From: Psychrobacter sp. ANT_WB68
GTDB taxonomy: Bacteria > Pseudomonadota > Gammaproteobacteria > Pseudomonadales > Moraxellaceae
Direction: 5' to 3'
Assembly: GCF_008369115.1 (NCBI RefSeq)
Contig: NZ_VOAZ01000003.1
Coordinates: 186,001 to 250,000, forward strand
DNA length: 64,000 nucleotides
The first letter of the stretch is position 1; each line of letters begins with the position of its first letter. A model generated the notes under the pieces. That model was not told the DNA's origin. It did no database searches and saw only the letters and a list, made by a program, of their open reading frames with translations. The translations under genes and the position numbers were made by a program. Of the stretch, positions 29,842 to 42,017 are shown piece after piece.

Positions 29842-29912
29842 ATTTCTAATCCCAAGCATTAACCTCACTTTTTCATAGTTTTATAATAGATGTTTCCAAT
29901 ATGGAGTTTTTT

Positions 29913-32900
29913 ATGAGTTACAAGAAAATTATTAAAGTTTTATCTATAGATAATGACAAAAAGATGGTTTTAAAAAGACGTATAAATAAACTAAAAAGAG
30001 ATCCAAAGGGTTTTTTGGGAGATTCATACAAGAAGCGAAGTAATCAGGCACGAAAATACTTACCTATTAAATATAGCAGTTCGAATCATTTCACTGTTGT
30101 TTCAGCAGTATATAATGTTGAGGACTATATAGAAGATTATTTTGATAGCTTAATAAATCAGTCGCTAAGTTTTAAAAAATATATAAAATTAATTTTAGTA
30201 GATGATGGATCAACAGATGGATCTGCTACTATTATTAAGAAATGGCAAAGAAAATATCCAAATAATATTACTTACTTATATAAAGATAATGGTGGCCAAG
30301 CATCTGCTAGGAATATGGGAATTGATCTAGTAACTAGTGAATGGGTTACTTTTATTGATCCAGACGATTTTGTAGACATAGATTATTTCTATACTTTAAA
30401 TTCCATTTTAGAAAATGACAATTCTTTAAATATGATTGTAGCCAATATCCAGTTATTTATGGAAGAGTTTAATGAGATTAGAAATAGGCATCCACTAAGG
30501 AATCGCTTCAAAAATATTAAGACTAGACTGCCTGCTATGGACTTGAAGAGTCATATCAATCTTTCAGCTGCAGCATCTATCTTTAAAACGTCAATTATTA
30601 ATGAAAAATTTTTACAGTTTGGGGAAGATGTAAAGCCTACTTTTGAGGATGGTAAGTTTATAGCTGAATATCTACTGAGAAATGACGGAAACGTATTGTT
30701 TTCTAAAGACCTAATATATCTTTATAGAAAAAGAAATGATAAAAGCTCTACTGTGGATAAATCTTGGGAAGATAAGAGGAAGTATAGGGATATATTAAAA
30801 AAAGGCTATCTAGCTATTTTATCTATATACAATAATGACTTAGGATATGTGCCTAATCATATTCAAAGAACCGTTTTATATGATATAAGTTGGTATTTAA
30901 GATTATTGGTAGATAATCCTGAGAAAACATTGTTTCTAAGTTGTGAAGAAGAAAATATTTTTCATAAGCTCATTGAAGATATATTTTATTATATAGACTC
31001 AGAGGTCATATTAGATTTTGACTTAGCAGGAATATGGTTTGCATTTAAAGTAGGAATGATTGAAACTTTTAAAAACGATAGGGTTTTTAATCAAATCGTA
31101 TATATTGAAAATATAGATAGAGAAAAAGAGCAAATTCTCATCTCTTACTTCACAGGTCATCAAAGAGCTGTCTCATTCCGATTTGATGGTAAAGATGTGA
31201 TACCTATCTACCAAAAAGTGATAAAACATGATTTTGTAGGTCAAAACTTTGTTAACGAGTTTAGGTCATGGGTTTCTTATAGCTCTAAAGGAAAGTTTGA
31301 AGTATTCATAGATGGCAATAAATCAAGGATTTCACTTAAAGGAAAGCAATATAAGGACGGTGTTGAAGTAGAAGAGATTATAGGTAAGTTTTCGCCATCG
31401 ATACAGTATAAAACTGATGGGAGTTGGTTGTTGATGGATAGAGATACTCAAGCGGACGATAATGCTGAGAGTTTTTACCGATATCTGATGATCAATCATC
31501 CTAATCAGAAAATATGTTTTGCCTTAAGAAGGTCTTCACCAGACTGGAATCGTCTTGAACATGCTGGATTTAATCTTGTCGATTTCGGCACTAAGGAATT
31601 TGAGAAAAAGTTAAAGCTTTCCTCTAAAATTATTAGTAGTCATTTGGATAAATATATAAACAATTATTTCGGTGATGAGTACGAATATAGTAAGAAGTTT
31701 GTCTTTTTACAGCATGGCGTGATAATGAATGATCTATCAGATTGGTTTAGTAGTAAAAATAATCTGCAGTGTTTGATTACAACTACGACTGATGAGTATT
31801 CTTCAATCCTTGATAAAGATAGTAGATATAAGCTTACTGAAAAAGAGGTGGTTCTGACTGGAATACCACGTCATGATAATCTTTTAGCAGATAATTCAAA
31901 CAGTAATAAAATAATACTTATAATGCCCACTTGGCGCAAAGGTATTATGGGTGATACGATTGGCATGGGTAATACCCGTACAATCAATTCAGAGTTTATG
32001 AATACTTCGTATGCTAAACACTGGAGCGATTTATTAAATAGTAATGAGCTCGAGGAGTTATCTCGCCATTACGGATACGAGGTCATTTTTGCTCCACATG
32101 CTAACATTGAGCCTTATTTACCTAACTTTGAACTGCCTGAGTATATAAGTGTTTGGACCGCAACCCATTCTGACTTTAGTATGCAAAAACTTTTTCAAAC
32201 AGCAAGGTTGATGATAACTGACTATTCTTCAGTTGCCTTTGAAATGGGTTTATTGAATAAGTATGTACTTTATTATCAGTTTGATCAGGAAGAGTTTTTT
32301 ACAGTATCACATCTTTTTAAGAAAGGTTATTTTTCCTATGTAGAGAATGGGTTTGGTCCTGTAGCTACCACTCAAGAAGGAATACTAGGTAATCTTGAAG
32401 CGGTTCTTAAGAATGGCGGTGAACCTTTAGAACCTTATAGAACACGTATGATTGAAACCTTTCCATTTAGAGATGGAGAAAATTGTGAGCGAGTATATGA
32501 AGCTATTTTAGATCTCGATCGTCCTGATACCTCAGAAGTTTCCGTTGATACGATTATGGAGTATGCACAGCAAGCCATAACTCATGAGGCTTGGGATCTT
32601 GCACTAGAACGTATTGATAATGCTCTACAGCATTCTGATATTAATCAAGCGCAGTTAGAAGTAATTAATCGAACTAAAGAACAAGTCATTCAGACTGGCT
32701 ATCAAGATGACCCTGTCAAATTAGCTAATATATTATGGCATGAAAAGCGTTTGGGTGAAGGGTTGGAAAAGCTTAAACAGGTTCAGGGTACAGAACTGAC
32801 TGATGAGCTATTACGTCTACGTATTAAGCTAGCTATTCTAAGTAATGACTTTATATTGGCACGAGATTCACAAAAAATGTTATTAGAAGAGTATAGTGAT

Positions 32901-32951
32901 AATTGTACTATTGAAGATTGGCAATTCTACGCACAGTTAGCCAATATATAG
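29913..32951 (+). CDS. GT2 glycosyltransferase fused to CDP-glycerol:glycerophosphotransferase (TagF-like) domain
   Basis: A 1012-aa bifunctional enzyme that probably builds a phosphodiester-linked surface polymer. The N-terminal GT2 domain (about 45-330) shows VVSAVYNVEDYI, VDDGSTDG (96-103) and FIDPDDF. A middle segment of unclear fold follows. The glycerophosphotransferase domain (about 490-865) has FLQHGV (about 598-603), MPTWR (about 671-675), FAPHANI and TDYSSVAFE (about 769-777). The last 130 residues are helical and TPR-like. The start is 29913, because the ATG at 29901 lies where GGAG serves as ribosome-binding site. A basic N-terminal motif KLKRDPxxFxxD is shared with the next gene. 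The first half is more A+T-rich than the second. Confidence 0.88.
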   Translation: MSYKKIIKVLSIDNDKKMVLKRRINKLKRDPKGFLGDSYKKRSNQARKYLPIKYSSSNHFTVVSAVYNVEDYIEDYFDSLINQSLSFKKYIKLILVDDGSTDGSATIIKKWQRKYPNNITYLYKDNGGQASARNMGIDLVTSEWVTFIDPDDFVDIDYFYTLNSILENDNSLNMIVANIQLFMEEFNEIRNRHPLRNRFKNIKTRLPAMDLKSHINLSAAASIFKTSIINEKFLQFGEDVKPTFEDGKFIAEYLLRNDGNVLFSKDLIYLYRKRNDKSSTVDKSWEDKRKYRDILKKGYLAILSIYNNDLGYVPNHIQRTVLYDISWYLRLLVDNPEKTLFLSCEEENIFHKLIEDIFYYIDSEVILDFDLAGIWFAFKVGMIETFKNDRVFNQIVYIENIDREKEQILISYFTGHQRAVSFRFDGKDVIPIYQKVIKHDFVGQNFVNEFRSWVSYSSKGKFEVFIDGNKSRISLKGKQYKDGVEVEEIIGKFSPSIQYKTDGSWLLMDRDTQADDNAESFYRYLMINHPNQKICFALRRSSPDWNRLEHAGFNLVDFGTKEFEKKLKLSSKIISSHLDKYINNYFGDEYEYSKKFVFLQHGVIMNDLSDWFSSKNNLQCLITTTTDEYSSILDKDSRYKLTEKEVVLTGIPRHDNLLADNSNSNKIILIMPTWRKGIMGDTIGMGNTRTINSEFMNTSYAKHWSDLLNSNELEELSRHYGYEVIFAPHANIEPYLPNFELPEYISVWTATHSDFSMQKLFQTARLMITDYSSVAFEMGLLNKYVLYYQFDQEEFFTVSHLFKKGYFSYVENGFGPVATTQEGILGNLEAVLKNGGEPLEPYRTRMIETFPFRDGENCERVYEAILDLDRPDTSEVSVDTIMEYAQQAITHEAWDLALERIDNALQHSDINQAQLEVINRTKEQVIQTGYQDDPVKLANILWHEKRLGEGLEKLKQVQGTELTDELLRLRIKLAILSNDFILARDSQKMLLEEYSDNCTIEDWQFYAQLANI

Positions 32952-33019: not shown

Positions 33020-34147
33020 ATGATATCCAAAGTAATAAGTAAGCGTAGTAACTATAAACGTAAGCTTAAAAAGCTAAAAAATAATCCCGGTGTTTTTTTT
33101 CGGGATTATTTCAATAAACGCTACCCTGTTACCAATACTGAACTTGGGGTCGATGAAGTCATTGAAACGGCTTTTGTAGAATATTCTAATATCAATACTG
33201 TCGCTATGCCTGATGATAGAGTCATAGACGTGGTATTTACTTGGGTAGATAATACTGACAAAGCGTGGCAGAAAAAATATAAAAAACATAAATTAGAAGG
33301 AATTGCTGCCCAACTAGGTCAATATGCTACTGATAGCGCACGTTTTGACAATCATAATGAGTTATTTTATTCAGTCAAAGCAGTGAAGAAATACCTACCT
33401 TGGGTAAGACACATTTATATTGTCACTGACAATCAAATACCGGACTGGTTAGATCAGATAAAGGGAATTACTATCATTGATCACACTGAAATTATCGATA
33501 ATAAATATCTACCCACCTTTAATTCACATGTTATAGAAGCGTTTCTATACCGTATACCAGAATTATCAGAAAATTTTATTTATTTTAATGATGATGTGTT
33601 TGTGGCGAAAGAATTACCACAAGAACATTTTTTTTCAGCGAATAATATAAGCTCTTTATTTGTATCGACTAAAAATTTATATGCTATGCAAAAGAAAGGA
33701 GTTGTAACCCCAACCTTAAAAGCTTCGTTGCAGAGTATTGAGCTATTGCAAAAGCACTATCCATACAATATTAAGAATCCGCTTGTTCATACTTATTTTC
33801 CACTAAAAAAATCAGGGTATGAGAAAGCATGGCAGTTATTTGAAAAAGAAATAAAAGCTTTTTTACCTAATCGGTTTCGAGGTAACAACGATCTTAATAT
33901 GGCTTCGTTTTTAGTGCCATGGCTATTGTACTGTGAAGGAAAAGCGATTGAAAAAGTTGATATTTGCTATTACTTCAATATTCGCTCACGCCATGCTTTG
34001 ACACGTTATGAGAAATTGCTGAAACTAAAGAAACTAAATGCTTCGCCTCATTCCTTTTGTGCAAATGATTTCAAGAGCGATAGCGAGAATAAGCTACCTG
34101 ATTATCATGAGCGTTTAATGGGTATGTTAAAGCGTTACTATAAGTAA
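33020..34147 (+). CDS. Stealth-family capsular polysaccharide phosphotransferase
   Basis: A 375-aa protein with the Stealth conserved regions: CR1 IDVVFTWVDNTDKAWQ (about 68-83), CR2 FDNHNELFYSVKAVKKYLPWVRHIYIVTDNQIPDWL (about 109-144), CR3 around YFNDDVFV (188-195), and a C-terminal CR4-like segment. Members transfer hexose- or hexosamine-1-phosphate to make phosphodiester-linked capsules (for example meningococcal group A/X type). Its N-terminus carries the motif KLKNNPGVFFRD also seen in the preceding enzyme. No strong ribosome-binding site precedes the ATG, and a terminator lies just upstream. It ends 4 bp from the convergent KpsC-like gene. Confidence 0.9.
   Translation: MISKVISKRSNYKRKLKKLKNNPGVFFRDYFNKRYPVTNTELGVDEVIETAFVEYSNINTVAMPDDRVIDVVFTWVDNTDKAWQKKYKKHKLEGIAAQLGQYATDSARFDNHNELFYSVKAVKKYLPWVRHIYIVTDNQIPDWLDQIKGITIIDHTEIIDNKYLPTFNSHVIEAFLYRIPELSENFIYFNDDVFVAKELPQEHFFSANNISSLFVSTKNLYAMQKKGVVTPTLKASLQSIELLQKHYPYNIKNPLVHTYFPLKKSGYEKAWQLFEKEIKAFLPNRFRGNNDLNMASFLVPWLLYCEGKAIEKVDICYYFNIRSRHALTRYEKLLKLKKLNASPHSFCANDFKSDSENKLPDYHERLMGMLKRYYK
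33079..33111 (+). repeat. Palindrome inside the 5' end of the Stealth gene
   Basis: AAATAATCCCG (33079-33089) and CGGGATTATTT (33101-33111) form an 11-bp stem around a T-rich loop, within codons 20-31. It could hinder early translation or simply reflect the coded NNPGVFFRDY motif. Confidence 0.5.
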
Positions 34148-35108: not shown

Positions 35109-35266
35109 AATATGGTTGATGGCTCAGATTGATAGCGGGAGAGCAGCCGTGCATTATAGGTGTATTTATGTTGGCAATGCTTTGTAGTTCCCAGTATAGT
35201 TACATTTAAGAGTAAAGACGAATACCTACTTTAAAAACAATAGATCCGAAAGAAATGGTCCATCTT

Positions 35267-36328
35267 ATGAAAAACAAGATATTGGTAACGGGTGGTGCTG
35301 GATATATCGGCTCACACACATGTATCGCTTTGCATCAGGCAGGCTATGATATCGTCGTGTACGATAACTTATCTAATAGTAGCCGTGAAGCTGTCAATCG
35401 TGTCTCTACTCTCATTGGTCAGCCTCTCGAATTTATCGAAGGCGATATCCGCGATTCTGAGTTACTTAGACAGGTATTTGCAGAGCATCAATTTTTTGGT
35501 GTGATTCATTTTGCGGGGTTAAAGGCCGTTGGCGAATCCGTTGCCAAGCCCCTGCTGTACTATAATAATAACGTCAGCGGAACCATTACTTTATTGGAAG
35601 TCATGGCTGAAGCCAACGTTAAAAACTTAGTTTTTTCCTCTTCTGCTACTGTCTATGGTGATCCCGAAACGCTACCTATTGATGAGAACTCGAAGCGTTC
35701 TTGTACCAATCCTTATGGACAAAGTAAGCTGACGGTCGAGCATATTTTAGAAGACTTAGCGGTATCCGATGATAGCTGGAACCTCATTCCTCTCAGGTAT
35801 TTTAATCCGGTAGGGGCGCATTCATCGGGACAAATTGGCGAAGATCCGAATGACATTCCTAATAATTTAATGCCTTATATCTCGCAAGTCGCCGTTGGTA
35901 AGCTTGAAAAGCTCAGCATCTTTGGTAATGATTATTCTACTGTAGATGGTACAGGCGTACGCGACTTTATCCATGTCACTGATCTGGCGCAAGGTCATGT
36001 TGCAGCGCTTAATTATCTACAGCAACAGGCAAGCTCAGATAAAGACAGCTTAGATAAAAATAGCTCAGTAGGCTTCTTGCCTATTAACCTAGGAACAGGC
36101 AAAGGGACTTCAGTTTTAGAGTTGGTCACTGCTTTTTCTGAAGTCTCCGGCCAAGATATTCCTTATCAATTTTCTGCTCGCCGCGCTGGTGATATTGCCA
36201 GCTGCTATGCCAGTGCTGATAAAGCAAAGGAGCTATTAGGTTGGGAAGCGAAACTGTCTATCACTGAGATGTGTCAAGATACGTGGCGTTGGCAAAGTAT
36301 GAATCCGAATGGTTATAACATCGCTTAG
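35267..36328 (+). CDS. galE: UDP-glucose 4-epimerase
   Basis: Interconverts UDP-glucose and UDP-galactose (possibly the N-acetyl forms; the equivalent Acinetobacter gene is called gne1). KILVTGGAGYIGSHTCIALHQAG is the NAD-binding motif. SSSATVYGDP carries the catalytic Ser/Thr, NPYGQSKLTVE the YxxxK pair, and IPLRYFNPVGAHSSG the substrate loop. The protein is about 353 aa, with a short Ser/Asp-rich insertion near residue 255. The start MKNKILVTGG (35267) fits the family; four codons upstream are unlikely. First gene of galE-galU-pgi. Confidence 0.93.
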   Translation: MKNKILVTGGAGYIGSHTCIALHQAGYDIVVYDNLSNSSREAVNRVSTLIGQPLEFIEGDIRDSELLRQVFAEHQFFGVIHFAGLKAVGESVAKPLLYYNNNVSGTITLLEVMAEANVKNLVFSSSATVYGDPETLPIDENSKRSCTNPYGQSKLTVEHILEDLAVSDDSWNLIPLRYFNPVGAHSSGQIGEDPNDIPNNLMPYISQVAVGKLEKLSIFGNDYSTVDGTGVRDFIHVTDLAQGHVAALNYLQQQASSDKDSLDKNSSVGFLPINLGTGKGTSVLELVTAFSEVSGQDIPYQFSARRAGDIASCYASADKAKELLGWEAKLSITEMCQDTWRWQSMNPNGYNIA

Positions 36329-36392
36329 ATTGCATAAAGACTATCTTTAAAGCTAGCTTTTATCTCACACCTTCTAATACAGTTTAAAAATT

Positions 36393-37277
36393 ATGAAAAA
36401 AATCACCCACGCCGTTATTCCCGTCGCAGGCTTTGGCACCCGTATGTTGCCCTTATCTAAATCAGTGCCAAAAGAACTATTGCCACTTGGTAACCGTCCT
36501 GCTATTCATTATGTCGTTGAAGAGGCGATAGCTGCTGGTATCAAACATATTGTGTTGGTTGGTCATGCGCAAAAAAGCGCCATTGAAAATTATTTCGATA
36601 TCAATGCTGAGTTAGATAACCAATTGCGTCAAAAGGGTAAAAACGAGCTGGCCGATAGCCTAAACTGGCTACCAGATGATGTGACGGTATCGATGATACG
36701 CCAAGGTAAACCATTAGGTTTGGGGCATGCGGTGCTTGCAGCGCGCCCAATTATAGGTACGAATGATTTTGCTGTGCTGTTGCCCGATGTGGTGCTAGAC
36801 CCGTTTACTACTGACATGGCAGCGGATAATTTAGCCTTTATGATTGATCGGTTTGCCAGCGATGGTCATTCACAGATATTGGTCGATAAAGTTGCCGATG
36901 AAGATGTGCATAAATACGGTATCGCCCAATTAAATGAAGCGTTGAGTGATGCAAGCGATTTAGCTGATAAAACAGATATGAATGTCAGCTTTAAAGTGTC
37001 CGGTTTTGTAGAAAAGCCAAACCTCGCTCAGGCGCCTTCCAGACTGGCTGTGGTCGGTCGTTATGTTTTTAGCCATCATATTTTTGATTATTTGGCCAAT
37101 ACAAAAGCGTCGGTTGGTGGCGAAATTCAACTGACCGACGCTATTGATGCCTTGATTAGTCAATATGGTGTTAATGTCACAACCATGCGCGGTAATAGTT
37201 ATGATGCCGGTGATATGCGCTCTTATCTGCAGGCGTTTATGTATTTTGCTCAGCAGCAATTGGTCGATGAAGAGTAA
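36393..37277 (+). CDS. galU: UTP-glucose-1-phosphate uridylyltransferase
   Basis: Makes UDP-glucose from glucose 1-phosphate and UTP (294 aa). The nucleotidyltransferase motif AVIPVAGFGTRMLPLSKSVPKELLPLGNRPAIHYVVEEAI starts the protein; IRQGKPLGLGHAVLAARP, FAVLLPDVVLDP, and GFVEKPNLAQAPSRLAVVGRYVF follow. Pgi starts 3 bp after its stop, so the two are very likely co-translated. The product feeds galE and, in other species, Ugd. Confidence 0.97.
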   Translation: MKKITHAVIPVAGFGTRMLPLSKSVPKELLPLGNRPAIHYVVEEAIAAGIKHIVLVGHAQKSAIENYFDINAELDNQLRQKGKNELADSLNWLPDDVTVSMIRQGKPLGLGHAVLAARPIIGTNDFAVLLPDVVLDPFTTDMAADNLAFMIDRFASDGHSQILVDKVADEDVHKYGIAQLNEALSDASDLADKTDMNVSFKVSGFVEKPNLAQAPSRLAVVGRYVFSHHIFDYLANTKASVGGEIQLTDAIDALISQYGVNVTTMRGNSYDAGDMRSYLQAFMYFAQQQLVDEE

Positions 37278-37280
37278 TTA

Positions 37281-38951
37281 ATGAACGATACAAAAGACAA
37301 TAAAGGCTATAGCAGCGCTCGCAATTCTGAATACTGGCAGCTGTTACAACAGTTAGCGGCACAGCCATGGTCGTTGGATGAACTGTTTGCGCAAGATGCT
37401 GAGCGTACGAGCCGTTTTAGTACGCAAGTTGGTGCGCTATATATGGACTATAGCAAGCAGTGTATTGACGAGACGGTATTAGCCAGGTTATTGAGCTTAG
37501 CTGAAAGTTGCGAATTGTCAGGCCGTATCGAGTCTTTATTGCAAGGCGCGATGGTAAATACTAGTGAAGCGCGTGCGGCGCTGCATACGGCGCTGCGCTT
37601 ACCAGCGACAGCGAAATTGCAAGTTGGTACGCAAGATGTCGTCGCCGATGTTCATCGTAGTCTGGCGCAGGTAGCAAGGTTATCGGAGCGTGTCCGTACG
37701 GGTACATGGCGCGGATTTTCCGGCAAGGCGATTACTGATGTGGTTAATATCGGCGTCGGTGGTTCTGATTTAGGTCCGCTGATGGCGACCACGGCGCTAG
37801 ATGAGTGGGCAGATACCAACATTGAGGTACATTTCGTCTCCAATATGGACGGCACGCAACTTGATAATTTACTGAAACACTTAAATCCTGAAACCACCTT
37901 ATTTATTATCTCGTCTAAATCTTTTGGTACCGTTGATACGCTATCCAATGCCAAGACAGCTCTGTCATGGCTCCTTGCAACTGCAAAACTGCGTGCGGGT
38001 ACGGAGGACAGCGTATTACGTCGTCACTTTATGGGCATCTCCGCTAACAGCGAAAAAATGAGCGCGTGGGGTATTCATCCTGAGCATCAGCTACAGCTTT
38101 GGGAATGGGTTGGTGGACGTTTTTCTTTATGGTCAGCGATTGGTCTTGCTATTGCCATTCGTATCGGGATAGATGGGTTTAAGGCTTTATTAGCAGGTGC
38201 TCATAGTATGGATGAGCATTTCGCGCAAGCGGATTTTGCAGAAAACTTACCGGTATTATTGGGTTTGCTTGCTGTCTGGAACAGTACCTTTTTACAAGTG
38301 AATGCTCATACGGTATTGCCGTATGATGGGCGTTTAGGGTATTTGCCCAGCTACTTAACCCAGCTTGAAATGGAAAGTAATGGTAAATCGGTAACGCTGC
38401 ATGGCGAGCGCCTTGATTATGATACGTGTCCGATTTTGTGGGGTGAAATTGGCTCAAACGCTCAGCATGCCTTTTATCAGCTGCTGCATCAAGGAACGCA
38501 GCAAGTCTCTTGTGATTTTATCGCCTGTGTTCGTCGTTATAGTGATAAAGCAACCAATGCGTCGTTACAGCAGCAGCATGAATTGTCTTTAGCCAATTGT
38601 CTAGCGCAAAGTCGGGTACTGGCTTTTGGTAATGCGGCTATCGCTGAGGCCGATGGTCAAATCGCTTCTGATGCTGACAAGTATAAATATTACCGCGGCA
38701 ATCAGCCGTCAACGACGTTACTGATTGACGAGCTGACCCCGCATAGTTTGGGGGCGTTAATCGCCCTTTATGAGCATAAAGTTTATGTCATGGCCAGCAT
38801 TTGGGATATCAATCCGTTTGACCAGTGGGGCGTCGAGATGGGGAAGCAGATGGCAGAGTCCGTGCATACTGCCATGCAGCAAGAGGGTAATCAGCAGTTC
38901 GACAGCTCTACCAATCAGCTGTTACAGCATATAAAGCTGTTTTCTTCATAA
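37281..38951 (+). CDS. pgi: Glucose-6-phosphate isomerase
   Basis: Interconverts glucose 6-phosphate and fructose 6-phosphate (556 aa). Signature segments are VVNIGVGGSDLGPLMA, FVSNMDGTQL, FIISSKSFGTVDTLSNA, GGRFSLWSAIGL, LPYDGRLGYLPSYLTQLEMESNGK and the C-terminal DINPFDQWGVEMGKQMA. It follows galU by 3 bp and sits in the sugar-nucleotide block found at the end of Acinetobacter capsule loci, where it is called gpi. Confidence 0.97.
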   Translation: MNDTKDNKGYSSARNSEYWQLLQQLAAQPWSLDELFAQDAERTSRFSTQVGALYMDYSKQCIDETVLARLLSLAESCELSGRIESLLQGAMVNTSEARAALHTALRLPATAKLQVGTQDVVADVHRSLAQVARLSERVRTGTWRGFSGKAITDVVNIGVGGSDLGPLMATTALDEWADTNIEVHFVSNMDGTQLDNLLKHLNPETTLFIISSKSFGTVDTLSNAKTALSWLLATAKLRAGTEDSVLRRHFMGISANSEKMSAWGIHPEHQLQLWEWVGGRFSLWSAIGLAIAIRIGIDGFKALLAGAHSMDEHFAQADFAENLPVLLGLLAVWNSTFLQVNAHTVLPYDGRLGYLPSYLTQLEMESNGKSVTLHGERLDYDTCPILWGEIGSNAQHAFYQLLHQGTQQVSCDFIACVRRYSDKATNASLQQQHELSLANCLAQSRVLAFGNAAIAEADGQIASDADKYKYYRGNQPSTTLLIDELTPHSLGALIALYEHKVYVMASIWDINPFDQWGVEMGKQMAESVHTAMQQEGNQQFDSSTNQLLQHIKLFSS

Positions 38952-39005
38952 TCGTGCTGTTAACTTATTAACGCTATTAATTCACCAATAATCAAAGGTA
39001 AAATC

Positions 39006-40385
39006 ATGAGCGCTGATGCCATAGATAAACATAAGCATGAACCTGCACCCAAGCCGTTTAGTAATGCTGCCATAAATGCTAGCGTCTGCGTCCTTGTCGG
39101 TCATAGTATCGAGGCGATTACCAGTGCCGTGGTTCTAGCAAGTCTCAGTCATGTGGTTCATCTTTATGCCGATAAAGACGTATTGACGCAGCAATTACAA
39201 CAATATGGCTTTGAGCATCATCTGCAAGCGCTTTGGCAAATGTATGACCAGCAGCAACAGATTATGAGCTATACGCTACCAAAGAGTGCTGATGAGTTAA
39301 TACAGCGTTATGAAGTGGCGAGTGATAATGATGAGAAAAAATCAGCTGCGCTATATTGGCTATTTTTAGATAGTATTAGCTCAGTATGGCTAGAAGACAG
39401 CTGGATTACTGCCTTTAACCATAGTCATGAGCAAGCATTACCAATCATAATGAGCGGTATTAAACAGTTAGGAGCGGTTGCAGCCTTGTCCAAACGTTTA
39501 CAGCGCGCTTGGGTCTATTATCTACCGTTCGTATTCTTAAAAGACGGTGATGCTTATAGCTCGATGTTAAATCCATCGTTATGGTTGCTCGGTGAAAAAA
39601 CGCCAAACAGTAGCCATCATCTAAATCTGCTACAACCATTGATACAGCATGCGCGTGCGACGTATCATGCCGATATTGCCACGATAGAGTTTGCGCGTAG
39701 TAGTATCATGGCGATGCTTGCAACGCGGGTCAGCTTTATGAATGAGATGTCGCGTTTGGCCGACAGTCATCAGGTCGATATCCAGCAGGTCAGCCACATC
39801 ATGGGCCTCGATGAGCGTGTAGGTAGTAGCTACTTACAAGCAGGTTGGGGGTTTGGCGGTAATACGCTACCGACGGAATTGGTTCAGCTGCAGCAGTCAA
39901 GTCAAGCGCAGAGCTTAGCCATGCCGTTATTGCAATCGGTCATCCATATTAATGAAGACCAAAAAGAGCTGATATTCCGCAAGTTTTGGCAGTATTTTGA
40001 TGGTTTTATCGATAATAAAACCGTCATGATTTGGGGCGGTAGTTATAAAGCAGGCTCAGGACGCACGGCCGAGTCGGCTATTCATCCTTTATTGGCATTA
40101 TTATGGTCTTATAATATCCGCACGCTGGTTTATAGTGATAAAGCGCAAATGGAGCTTGCCGCGCTTTATGAGCAGCAGCCATTGCTTGAATTAATTGACA
40201 ATCCTTATCAACAGCTTAATGAGGCGCAGGCAATCTTTATTATCAGTTGGTTGCCAGAAAACCGACTGGATATTAACAGACTGAATCAGCAGGCGATGCT
40301 CATATTCGATGCACAAAATGCTTTGTCACGGACACAGATTGATGCTTTAGTCGGGGATTATATTGGTATTGGTCGCGCTAAATAA
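39006..40385 (+). CDS. UDP-glucose 6-dehydrogenase homologue lacking catalytic residues
   Basis: A 459-aa protein with the UDP-glucose/GDP-mannose dehydrogenase layout: N-terminal Rossmann-like part (24-55), central helical domain RSSIMAMLATRVSFMNEMSRLADSHQVDIQQVSHIMGLDERVGSSYLQAGWGFGG (about 235-285), and C-terminal UDP-binding-like domain. Key residues are lost. The N-terminal GxGYVG reads VGHSIEA. The Lys before the central Asn is Arg. The catalytic GGSCFPKD is GGNTLPTE, putting Thr287 where the nucleophilic Cys belongs. The reading frame is intact, so it is a retained but probably non-dehydrogenase paralogue. It occupies the ugd position between pgi and pgm. Confidence 0.72.
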   Translation: MSADAIDKHKHEPAPKPFSNAAINASVCVLVGHSIEAITSAVVLASLSHVVHLYADKDVLTQQLQQYGFEHHLQALWQMYDQQQQIMSYTLPKSADELIQRYEVASDNDEKKSAALYWLFLDSISSVWLEDSWITAFNHSHEQALPIIMSGIKQLGAVAALSKRLQRAWVYYLPFVFLKDGDAYSSMLNPSLWLLGEKTPNSSHHLNLLQPLIQHARATYHADIATIEFARSSIMAMLATRVSFMNEMSRLADSHQVDIQQVSHIMGLDERVGSSYLQAGWGFGGNTLPTELVQLQQSSQAQSLAMPLLQSVIHINEDQKELIFRKFWQYFDGFIDNKTVMIWGGSYKAGSGRTAESAIHPLLALLWSYNIRTLVYSDKAQMELAALYEQQPLLELIDNPYQQLNEAQAIFIISWLPENRLDINRLNQQAMLIFDAQNALSRTQIDALVGDYIGIGRAK

Positions 40386-40439: not shown

Positions 40440-40493
40440 TCTATAAAAAAGGCGCCGGTTAATTTCTATATTAACCGGCGCCTTTTTTATAGA
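40440..40493. terminator. Bidirectional terminator between the ugd-like gene and pgm
   Basis: Perfect 23-bp arms (40440-40462 and 40471-40493) with GGCGCCGG/CCGGCGCC core, A/T tails and an 8-nt loop, between convergent genes. Confidence 0.93.
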
Positions 40494-40535: not shown

Positions 40536-42017
40536 TTAAGCAGGTACAGCACCTTGGCTGGCAAGCCATTGCTGAATCTCTTGGGTTTTAGTTTGTAGTA
40601 AATCCTTATCCCCGCGACTTTCAATATTTAATCTGATCAGTGGTTCTGTATTTGATGCACGTAAGTTAAAACGCCATTCGCCAAAGTTCAAACTCAAACC
40701 ATCAAGCATCGATTTAGTTGGATTTTCGTTGCTAAACTTTGCTTCAATTGCCTTAATAATCGCCTGCGCATCAAGAGTAGTGAGATGAAAATTTAGCTCA
40801 CCTGAGCTTGGATAGGCTTGAATATAACCGCTGACCAATTTTGATAACTTTTTACCTGTGGTGGATAATAACTCAATGGTTAGCAGCCAAGGAATCATAC
40901 CGCTGTCACAGTAGAAAAAATCACGGAAATAGTGATGTGCAGACATCTCGCCGCCGTATACAGCGCCAGAATCACGCATCACTTGCTTGATAAATGAGTG
41001 TCCAGACTTACTGATGACCGCTTTACCTTTATGCTCATGAATGACGGCTTCGGTGTTATAAATGACCCGTGGATCATAAACAATCGACTCGCCTGCATAC
41101 TTGTTTAAAAACGCTTGCGCGAGCATCCCAACGACATAGCTACCATCAATAAATTCGCCATGCTCATCAAATAAGAAACAGCGGTCAAAGTCCCCATCAA
41201 AAGCAATACCAAGGTCGGCTTTATTTGCTAACACGGCTTGCTGAGTTACGGTTCTATTAGCTTCAATCATAGGATTGGGGATGCCATTCGGAAAGCTACC
41301 ATCAGGCGTATGATGCAGTTTAATAATTTCAATCGGCGCGCCAGCTTGTGCTAACTTCTCAATTAATAAATCAACCACGGGACCGGCGCTGCCATTACCT
41401 GAATTAATCACCAGCTTAAGCGGTTTTAATTTATCAATATCGACGAAGGTCATCACATGATTGATATAGGCGCTTTTATCCGTCAACAGCTGCAATTTAC
41501 CTAGTGTATTGTCAGTGGCAAATTGTCCAGATTCTGCCAAGACTTGAATCTCAGCCAAACCATCATCGGCACTAATCGGTTTTGATTGTTCCTTGACCAA
41601 CTTTAAGCCATTATAATTAATCGGATTATGACTAGCAGTCACTTCGATACCACCCAGCGCCTTATAGTGACTGGTGGCAAAATACACCTCTTCAGTTCCC
41701 GTCATCCCTAAATCGATCACGTCGACGCCGGCATCTAGTATACCTTTGATAGCCGCTTGTTTTAACTGCTCACTTGAATGACGAATATCGCTACCGATAA
41801 CGACAGCTGGCTTTAAGTTTTTTAATTCAGTAGAGGCGTCAGCTACGTTATAACGCTGGAATAAAATCTGTGCAAAGGCACGCCCGATACGGTAAGCAAT
41901 ATTCTCGTCTAGATTGACTCCAAGCTCACCGCGGATATCATAAGCCTTAAATGAATTGATAATAATAGGATTAAATTCAGTGGTTGATTGATAGCCAGTA
42001 GTCGCAGAAGTGGACAT
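40536..42017 (-). CDS. pgm: Phosphomannomutase/phosphoglucomutase
   Basis: Alpha-D-phosphohexomutase (493 aa) that moves phosphate between C6 and C1 of glucose or mannose. IINSFKAYDIRGELGVNLDENIAYRIGRA is the domain-1 start; the phosphoserine loop is EVTASHNPINYNGLKL (Ser near residue 130); the metal loop is IAFDGDFDRCFLFDEHG; sugar specificity GEMSAHHYF; and phosphate-binding RASNTEPLIRLNIES. This is the AlgC/ManB type. It closes the galE-galU-pgi block on the opposite strand, and supplies glucose 1-phosphate to GalU. Some annotators would name it algC or manB. Confidence 0.93.
   Translation of the reverse strand: MSTSATTGYQSTTEFNPIIINSFKAYDIRGELGVNLDENIAYRIGRAFAQILFQRYNVADASTELKNLKPAVVIGSDIRHSSEQLKQAAIKGILDAGVDVIDLGMTGTEEVYFATSHYKALGGIEVTASHNPINYNGLKLVKEQSKPISADDGLAEIQVLAESGQFATDNTLGKLQLLTDKSAYINHVMTFVDIDKLKPLKLVINSGNGSAGPVVDLLIEKLAQAGAPIEIIKLHHTPDGSFPNGIPNPMIEANRTVTQQAVLANKADLGIAFDGDFDRCFLFDEHGEFIDGSYVVGMLAQAFLNKYAGESIVYDPRVIYNTEAVIHEHKGKAVISKSGHSFIKQVMRDSGAVYGGEMSAHHYFRDFFYCDSGMIPWLLTIELLSTTGKKLSKLVSGYIQAYPSSGELNFHLTTLDAQAIIKAIEAKFSNENPTKSMLDGLSLNFGEWRFNLRASNTEPLIRLNIESRGDKDLLQTKTQEIQQWLASQGAVPA

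Follow-up and report, generated by a model that had tools for sequence, protein, structure and literature searches.

In enterobacteria, GalF is an inactive-looking paralogue of GalU that modulates GalU. UDP-glucose 6-dehydrogenases (UGDH, EC 1.1.1.22) of the TuaD/BceC type (e.g. PDB 3gg2 and 2y0c) carry a GxGxxG NAD-binding loop, catalytic Lys, Asn and Asp residues, and a nucleophilic Cys in the motif G[FY]GGSCFPKD. In Acinetobacter baumannii a gene named ugd is reported in every K locus, in the order galU-ugd-gpi-gne1-pgm (PMC9676051), and its product is named, in the parts of the papers available to us, a predicted UDP-D-Glc dehydrogenase (PMC9676051, PMC3628348, PMC7200062). In 2.1% of K loci a second ugd group is accompanied by a second gpi group, and the same work lists ugd2-ugd5 as the genes for D-GlcA, with the figure 24 (PMC9676051, available part); D-GlcA in K71 is credited to ugd4 (PMC11619341, available part). 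Here we describe a gene from Psychrobacter sp. ANT_WB68, for which we coin the name ugdL (protein, UgdL), whose product is homologous to these dehydrogenases and is proposed to be a UGDH-derived pseudoenzyme.

The ugdL gene was located at positions 39006-40385 (+ strand) of the stretch of 64,000 nucleotides that was analysed (the window). It starts with ATG and its frame is intact over 459 codons. It is the last gene of a same-strand run, galE-galU-pgi-ugdL (35255-40385). From ORF and domain annotation, the run begins with a galE-type epimerase gene (35255-36328, +), followed by a galU-type nucleotidyltransferase gene (36393-37277, +) that ends 3 bases before pgi. The phosphoglucose isomerase gene pgi (37281-38951, +) is the upstream neighbour, with 54 bases from its stop to the ugdL start. 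Just past ugdL there is a terminator-like hairpin of 20 pairs (40443-40490, +), recognized by a consensus match, and then the convergent phosphoglucomutase/phosphomannomutase gene, pgm (40536-42017, - strand). The position between pgi and pgm given in a preliminary description of this DNA was therefore correct. Upstream of the run, the window also carries a gene for a fusion of a glycosyltransferase-2 and a CDP-glycerol glycerophosphotransferase (29901-32951), followed by one for a Stealth-family protein (33020-34147).

The UGDH central domain (Pfam PF00984) was recognized in UgdL with 78.9 bits (cut-off 25.4), which places the protein in the UDPG_MGDP_dh superfamily, and in a PDB sequence search UGDH 3gg2 matched residues 177-439 with an E of 7.1e-32. 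The UDP-binding domain (PF03720) scored 25.9 bits, below the cut-off of 30, and the NAD-binding domain (PF03721) could not be matched in this protein at E up to 1. With the NCBIfam model for nucleotide sugar dehydrogenases, TIGR03026, UgdL reached 127.4 bits, under the threshold of 189.8. In a set of seven hand-chosen proteins, the PF03721 score went from 224 for the canonical enzyme through 110, 43, 32 and 25 to 19 for the A. baumannii protein (cut-off 27) and to no match for that of ANT_WB68; in the same set PF00984 gave 132 bits with the canonical protein and 79-100 bits with those that lack the Cys. A PF00984 search of the ANT_WB68 genome for a second intact ugd returned one other protein, which is WecC-like (UDP-ManNAc dehydrogenase; NCBIfam score 634.2 bits, cut-off 459), and hence no UDP-glucose dehydrogenase was found elsewhere in the genome by this search.

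Inspection of the sequence and its alignment revealed that the residues on which dehydrogenation depends were replaced. In the Rossmann loop, residues 32-37 (39099-39116, +) read GHSIEA in place of GxGYVG, within the sequence VGHSIEA, so that the GxGxxG motif is lost. In the central helix, residues 231-235 (39696-39710, +) read RSSIM in place of KxxxN, the Lys220-type residue being Arg231 and the Asn224-type residue Met235 (the numbers of these and the other "-type" positions are those of human UGDH). Residues 282-291 (39849-39878, +) read GFGGNTLPTE, so that GGNTLPTE stands for GGSCFPKD, with Thr287 at the nucleophilic Cys, Thr290 at the adjacent Lys and Glu291 at the Asp280-type position. 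In addition, the E161-type position is a Val and the T131-type position an Ile. The preliminary description had called the gene an intact Ugd homologue, and had pointed to the Thr, Thr and Glu in this motif, to Arg at the central Lys and to the altered Rossmann loop; each of these readings survived the alignment, which added Met235 in place of the Asn.

The losses are not confined to ANT_WB68. The catalytic Cys was found in 0 of 152 aligned UgdL-lineage proteins versus 26 of the 26 canonical rows, and the former Cys column reads T in 84, S in 33, N in 20, G in 9, H in 4, A in 1 and Y in 1. The second glycine of GxGxxG is kept in 9/152 and the third in 4/152, whereas the canonical rows keep all three in every case; the first is retained in nearly all no-Cys rows, the second is mostly replaced by Thr, Ser, Glu or Asn, and the third by Ala for the most part, or by Ser. 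The loci that were read fell into two kinds, with GxGYVG and GGSCFPKD either both present or both absent. The 152-row count left out paralogues below 30% identity (14, all with the Cys), duplicates (L002 and L208/L209), broken copies (L121 and L122) and truncated ones (L236/L264); the 30 rows from other families, initially labelled by the absence of an exact GGSCFPKD, had no Cys when that column was checked. Cys-bearing orthologues, which would have marked the ANT_WB68 copy as a recent decay, did not turn up. Since both the nucleophile and the NAD loop are gone, established knowledge of UGDH makes it very probable that UgdL is not a UDP-glucose dehydrogenase.

Other parts of the active site were retained. 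All 152 no-Cys proteins have a GxGG loop and the Arg260-type residue, and in all 152 the Lys339-type position is K or R; these are UDP-contact positions of UGDH. In ANT_WB68 UgdL they are R271, G282/G284/G285 and K348. UgdL is thus like the TuaD/BceC-type enzymes in its ancestry, its central and UDP-binding domains, its fold and these contact positions, but differs from them in the absence of the catalytic Cys and of GxGxxG, in the changed Lys, Asn and Asp, and in forming a separate clade. The remaining pocket residues varied with the branch. The Lys220-, Glu165-, Asp280- and Arg442-type residues are kept in the canonical rows (n = 26) and in all 13 Acinetobacter rows; in the 30 rows from other families the Lys220 and Arg442 types are kept in 30, Glu165 in 26 and Asp280 in 14. 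The Lys220-type residue is Arg, and the Asp280-type residue Glu, in 72/72 Psychrobacter and 25/25 Moraxella-like rows. The pocket is therefore altered further in the Psychrobacter/Moraxella branch (Arg231, Met235, Glu291, and at the Arg442 position Gln or Lys), which makes binding of a UDP-sugar less sure there, and the ligand may differ.

An AF2 model of ANT_WB68 UgdL (49-row alignment) had a pLDDT of 78.7 and a pTM of 0.69. Its N-domain was mostly confident, with alternating strands and helices in a Rossmann-like arrangement. The nearest solved folds were UGDHs (Foldseek E 3.7e-20, TM 0.48), and superposition on a crystal UGDH gave a VIA Z of 20.1 with an rmsd of 12.0 Å over 359 residues, the domains being placed differently. 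So the model predicts that the UGDH family fold holds in UgdL, and its domain arrangement is not reliable. The pocket loop, residues 269-284, was its weakest part (pLDDT <50), and together with a domain arrangement unlike that of the UGDH crystals this led us to set the single-chain model aside as evidence on the pocket.

A match to ugdL was obtained in 60/60 sampled genomes of the genus, and two of these copies are broken (G057, JCM 18903; G059, WY6). Among the best 80 of 294 relatives, the closest named loci were those of P. immobilis A-11 and P. maritimus Pi2-25 (93%). Of the 199 genomes sampled from the family, 185 had a match, in some of them solely to a canonical Ugd, among the matches listed. 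Samples of the order (293 genomes) and of the class (274 genomes) were searched with an N-domain profile. The no-Cys kind was read in families f1, f26, f36, f37 and f43 of the order and in three families outside it, to which at least 4 of the 274 class genomes belong; this is a lower bound, obtained from 29 newly read loci, of which 4 lacked the Cys and the rest were canonical, one of them truncated. Absence elsewhere in these two surveys is no proof of absence, because the profile overlooked two known UgdL genomes of the family (G101 and G068). In the other families read, UgdL is intact. A Moraxella-type ugdL also appears on a contig filed under the title Streptomyces cinereus JCM 3040 (L203), a record that is probably contaminated or mislabelled.

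The no-Cys rows formed one clade (support 100/100), apart from the Cys-bearing Ugds, in both careful trees, which had 67 and 66 rows, and in a quick tree of 89 rows they again grouped together (support 98). Near-identical rows were left out of all trees, and the long rows L082, L232 and L229 and distant outgroups out of the careful ones. The ANT_WB68 copy lies inside this clade, and a very long stem, of about 2.5 changes per column, leads to the Psychrobacter/Moraxella branch. Within Psychrobacter, the median dN/dS of UgdL was 0.084 (148 pairs), with 0.126 for the N-domain and 0.049 for the central and C-terminal part. Relative to five named genomes, dN/dS was 0.062-0.096 for UgdL, 0.059-0.087 for galU, 0.046-0.059 for pgi, 0.056-0.078 for pgm and 0.059-0.231 for galE. 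UgdL is under purifying selection, similar to that on the neighbouring enzymes. Recent decay in one genome is ruled out by the matches throughout the genus, the single clade and the dN/dS values. Another drifting Ugd was noticed in family f38 (L312:5214-6500 of G393 and L313:5536-7011 of G322; 42-47% identity to a canonical one), where one copy reads GGVCLPGD, with the Cys kept, and the other GGVGLPRD, with Gly for the Cys; judged by its sequence, this appears to be an independent loss that is not part of the UgdL lineage.

The preliminary description had assumed that Acinetobacter has, or may have, a functional ugd at this position. Three A. baumannii chromosomes filed as plasmids (NZ_CP077849, NZ_CP104448 and NZ_CP064203) carry ugdL, with 95.5% identity to a sampled sequence of genus g15, and their copies read MKIAVFGTTLHAG and GVGFGGENFSHD; the Cys is thus replaced by Asn, with GGENFSHD at the GGSCFPKD position. 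The same replacement was found in 10/10 aligned g15 genomes and in G141, as well as in 3/3 of the named chromosomes, and in the alignment the Acinetobacter proteins also lack GxGxxG. A functional ugd at this locus is therefore rejected for the copies read, and the contrast with Acinetobacter is not supported. What stands of the earlier reading is a Ugd homologue at the ugd position that has lost the dehydrogenase residues and is under purifying selection. The second ugd/gpi homology group, described for 2.1% of K loci (PMC9676051), lies outside this rejection.

The A. baumannii K-locus 'ugd' thus belongs to the same clade as ANT_WB68 UgdL, has the same kind of neighbourhood and has lost the same Cys and GxGxxG; it keeps the Lys220-, Glu165-, Asp280- and Arg442-type residues, which are changed in the ANT_WB68 copy. 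Its dehydrogenase name may stem from TIGR03026, whose threshold (189.8 bits) it barely passes with 192.8. The assignment of D-GlcA to the extra genes ugd2-ugd5 fits a non-catalytic K-locus 'ugd'. A 2018 study by Kasimova is reportedly devoted to Ugd2 in K20/K21. No report of a K-locus ugd without the Cys, or of the universal ugd as inactive, was found in the open-access literature, as far as its text was available, and no open-access paper was found that combines 'UDP-glucose dehydrogenase' with 'pseudoenzyme'. In the available part of the A. baylyi table, galU and pgi are marked D in one step and pgi E in another, a ugd at ACIAD0072 is marked E, and no entry was seen for ACIAD0100, which lies between galU and pgi (PMC2606687). 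Four PLSDB 'plasmids' of A. baumannii and Aeromonas caviae (L124-L127) are 3.7-4.9 Mb long and represent chromosome-sized records.

The gene neighbourhood accompanies the lineage. A pgi and/or galU gene was present within 600 bases of ugdL at 115/121 loci of the family, 20/20 of other families of the order and 4/4 outside the order (139/145 in total); among canonical Ugds of the class sample, used as a control, galU or pgi occurred inside the 1.5-kb flanks in 1/24. The six family loci missed lie near contig ends (L073, L081 and L082), are split copies (L121/L122) or have pgi more than 600 bases away (L074). We then defined as M-type any Pgi whose best match with that of ANT_WB68 had an E of 1e-160 or lower. 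Among the matches listed, it was present in 44 of the 293 order genomes (the next best E was 3e-154), namely in 43/43 genomes classed as UgdL-bearing, 37 of them read as sequence and 6 classed from hit strength or length, versus 1/250 others. The one extra genome, G315, has galU and an M-type pgi together, and ugdL is absent. In family f36 all 11 genomes, of which 3 were classed by hit, have the M-type Pgi, but its gene lies at a distance from ugdL or on a different contig; genomes of this family (e.g. G430, G411 and G320) have two or three Pgi genes, one of the M-type and the others nearer to the other lineage.

Fourteen genomes of the family sample had no UgdL match; among the matches listed, nine of them had no pgi match, four had a divergent pgi only, and one, G070, has an intact M-type pgi elsewhere and no intact UgdL. 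In G070 (L314, C4:265198-266107), adjoining relics of a pgi with 5 stops and of a ugdL fragment lie beside pgm. G157, of the Acinetobacter group, has UgdL and galU and lacks pgi, and G100:C13 carries galU-pgi-ugdL-galE side by side. In eight genomes of genera g3, g4 and g6 of the family (L290-L296, L298) a Cys-bearing canonical Ugd lies beside a divergent pgi, so that proximity to pgi is no exclusive feature of the dead form. Five of these eight were placed in the second careful tree, all in the canonical clade; a Ugd of this kind was therefore rejected as parent of the UgdL lineage, and this second pgi-Ugd pairing looks separate. Both linkage and co-occurrence are inflated by phylogenetic non-independence, and shared inheritance of an operon can produce them.

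With these losses and this selection, a UDP-sugar-binding regulator or a scaffold is a sensible class of explanation. Our preferred reading, to which we give about even weight, is that UgdL is an old pseudoenzyme that binds a UDP-sugar and serves the node of glucose-6-phosphate and UDP-glucose; a UDP-sugar-responsive regulator of that node receives about the same weight. It is unlikely that UgdL has a purely structural role, in which its dimer would scaffold Pgi and/or GalU, or help to assemble them, and would sense no ligand: the gene neighbourhood, the association with one Pgi lineage, the central dimer domain as the best-scoring part of ANT_WB68 UgdL and the further drift of the pocket in the Psychrobacter/Moraxella branch are consistent with it, but the Arg260-, GxGG- and Lys339-type positions are fixed lineage-wide, seemingly more than a ligand-free scaffold needs. 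We consider equally doubtful an enzyme of other chemistry or cofactor, which would transform a UDP-sugar with neither the Cys nucleophile nor ordinary binding of NAD. The same retained positions, the N-terminal domain that is still predicted to be Rossmann-like and the partial conservation of the replaced loop (its first G nearly always kept, its third position mostly Ala) would suit such an enzyme, but seven kinds of residue occur in the former nucleophile column, conservation at K220, N224 and D280 is uneven, constraint on the N-domain is weaker than on the rest of the protein, and no alternative catalytic set was recognized.

Two further explanations carry far less weight. An inactive subunit of a mixed oligomer with canonical Ugd is very improbable; a canonical Ugd lies close by in some genomes (L239, L241 and L243; G087), but the PF00984 search of ANT_WB68 gave only UgdL and the WecC-like protein, and 23 of the 60 genus genomes had a single match, a count that may overlook remote Ugds. 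A functionless relic in decay is less probable still: the long Psychrobacter/Moraxella stem and the two broken genus copies would agree with decay, but UgdL was matched in every genus genome, its dN/dS is about 0.08 and it is intact in the other families. The relic reading is nearly excluded, the selection result speaking against it for the lineage.

The NAD loop and the nucleophilic Cys were lost, most simply once, in an ancestor of a large gammaproteobacterial lineage, in which the central dimer helix was retained along with much of the pocket for UDP. The gene goes together with galU and a particular pgi lineage. In the regulator model, UgdL would bind UDP-glucose or a related UDP-sugar, its occupancy would tune Pgi and/or GalU, and the split of glucose-6-phosphate between central metabolism and surface polysaccharide would be set as a result. 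We infer this role, with its ligand binding, its partner and its direction of regulation, from the retained residues, the selection and the gene association. By analogy, UgdL would follow the same idea as GalF, in which an inactive relative of an enzyme of UDP-glucose metabolism modulates the node, but it derives from a different enzyme ancestor.

Our more specific proposal is tentative: a UGDH-derived UDP-sugar sensor might control Pgi (or GalU) in several families of one gammaproteobacterial order, and be filed as a UDP-glucose dehydrogenase in A. baumannii capsule loci. If true, UDP-glucose would be coupled allosterically to the branch point at glucose-6-phosphate. UgdL would be a candidate regulator of Pgi, an enzyme that, to our knowledge, has few known protein regulators. 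It would also explain the extra ugd gene in glucuronic-acid capsules, and offer a testable answer for why D-GlcA is tied to ugd2-ugd5. The universal K-locus ugd of A. baumannii, reported in every KL (PMC9676051, available part), would then be misannotated, and pathway models that draw UDP-glucuronate from it would be wrong. If our reading is right, a whole pseudoenzyme family would have been overlooked at the point where surface polysaccharide branches off from central carbon metabolism.
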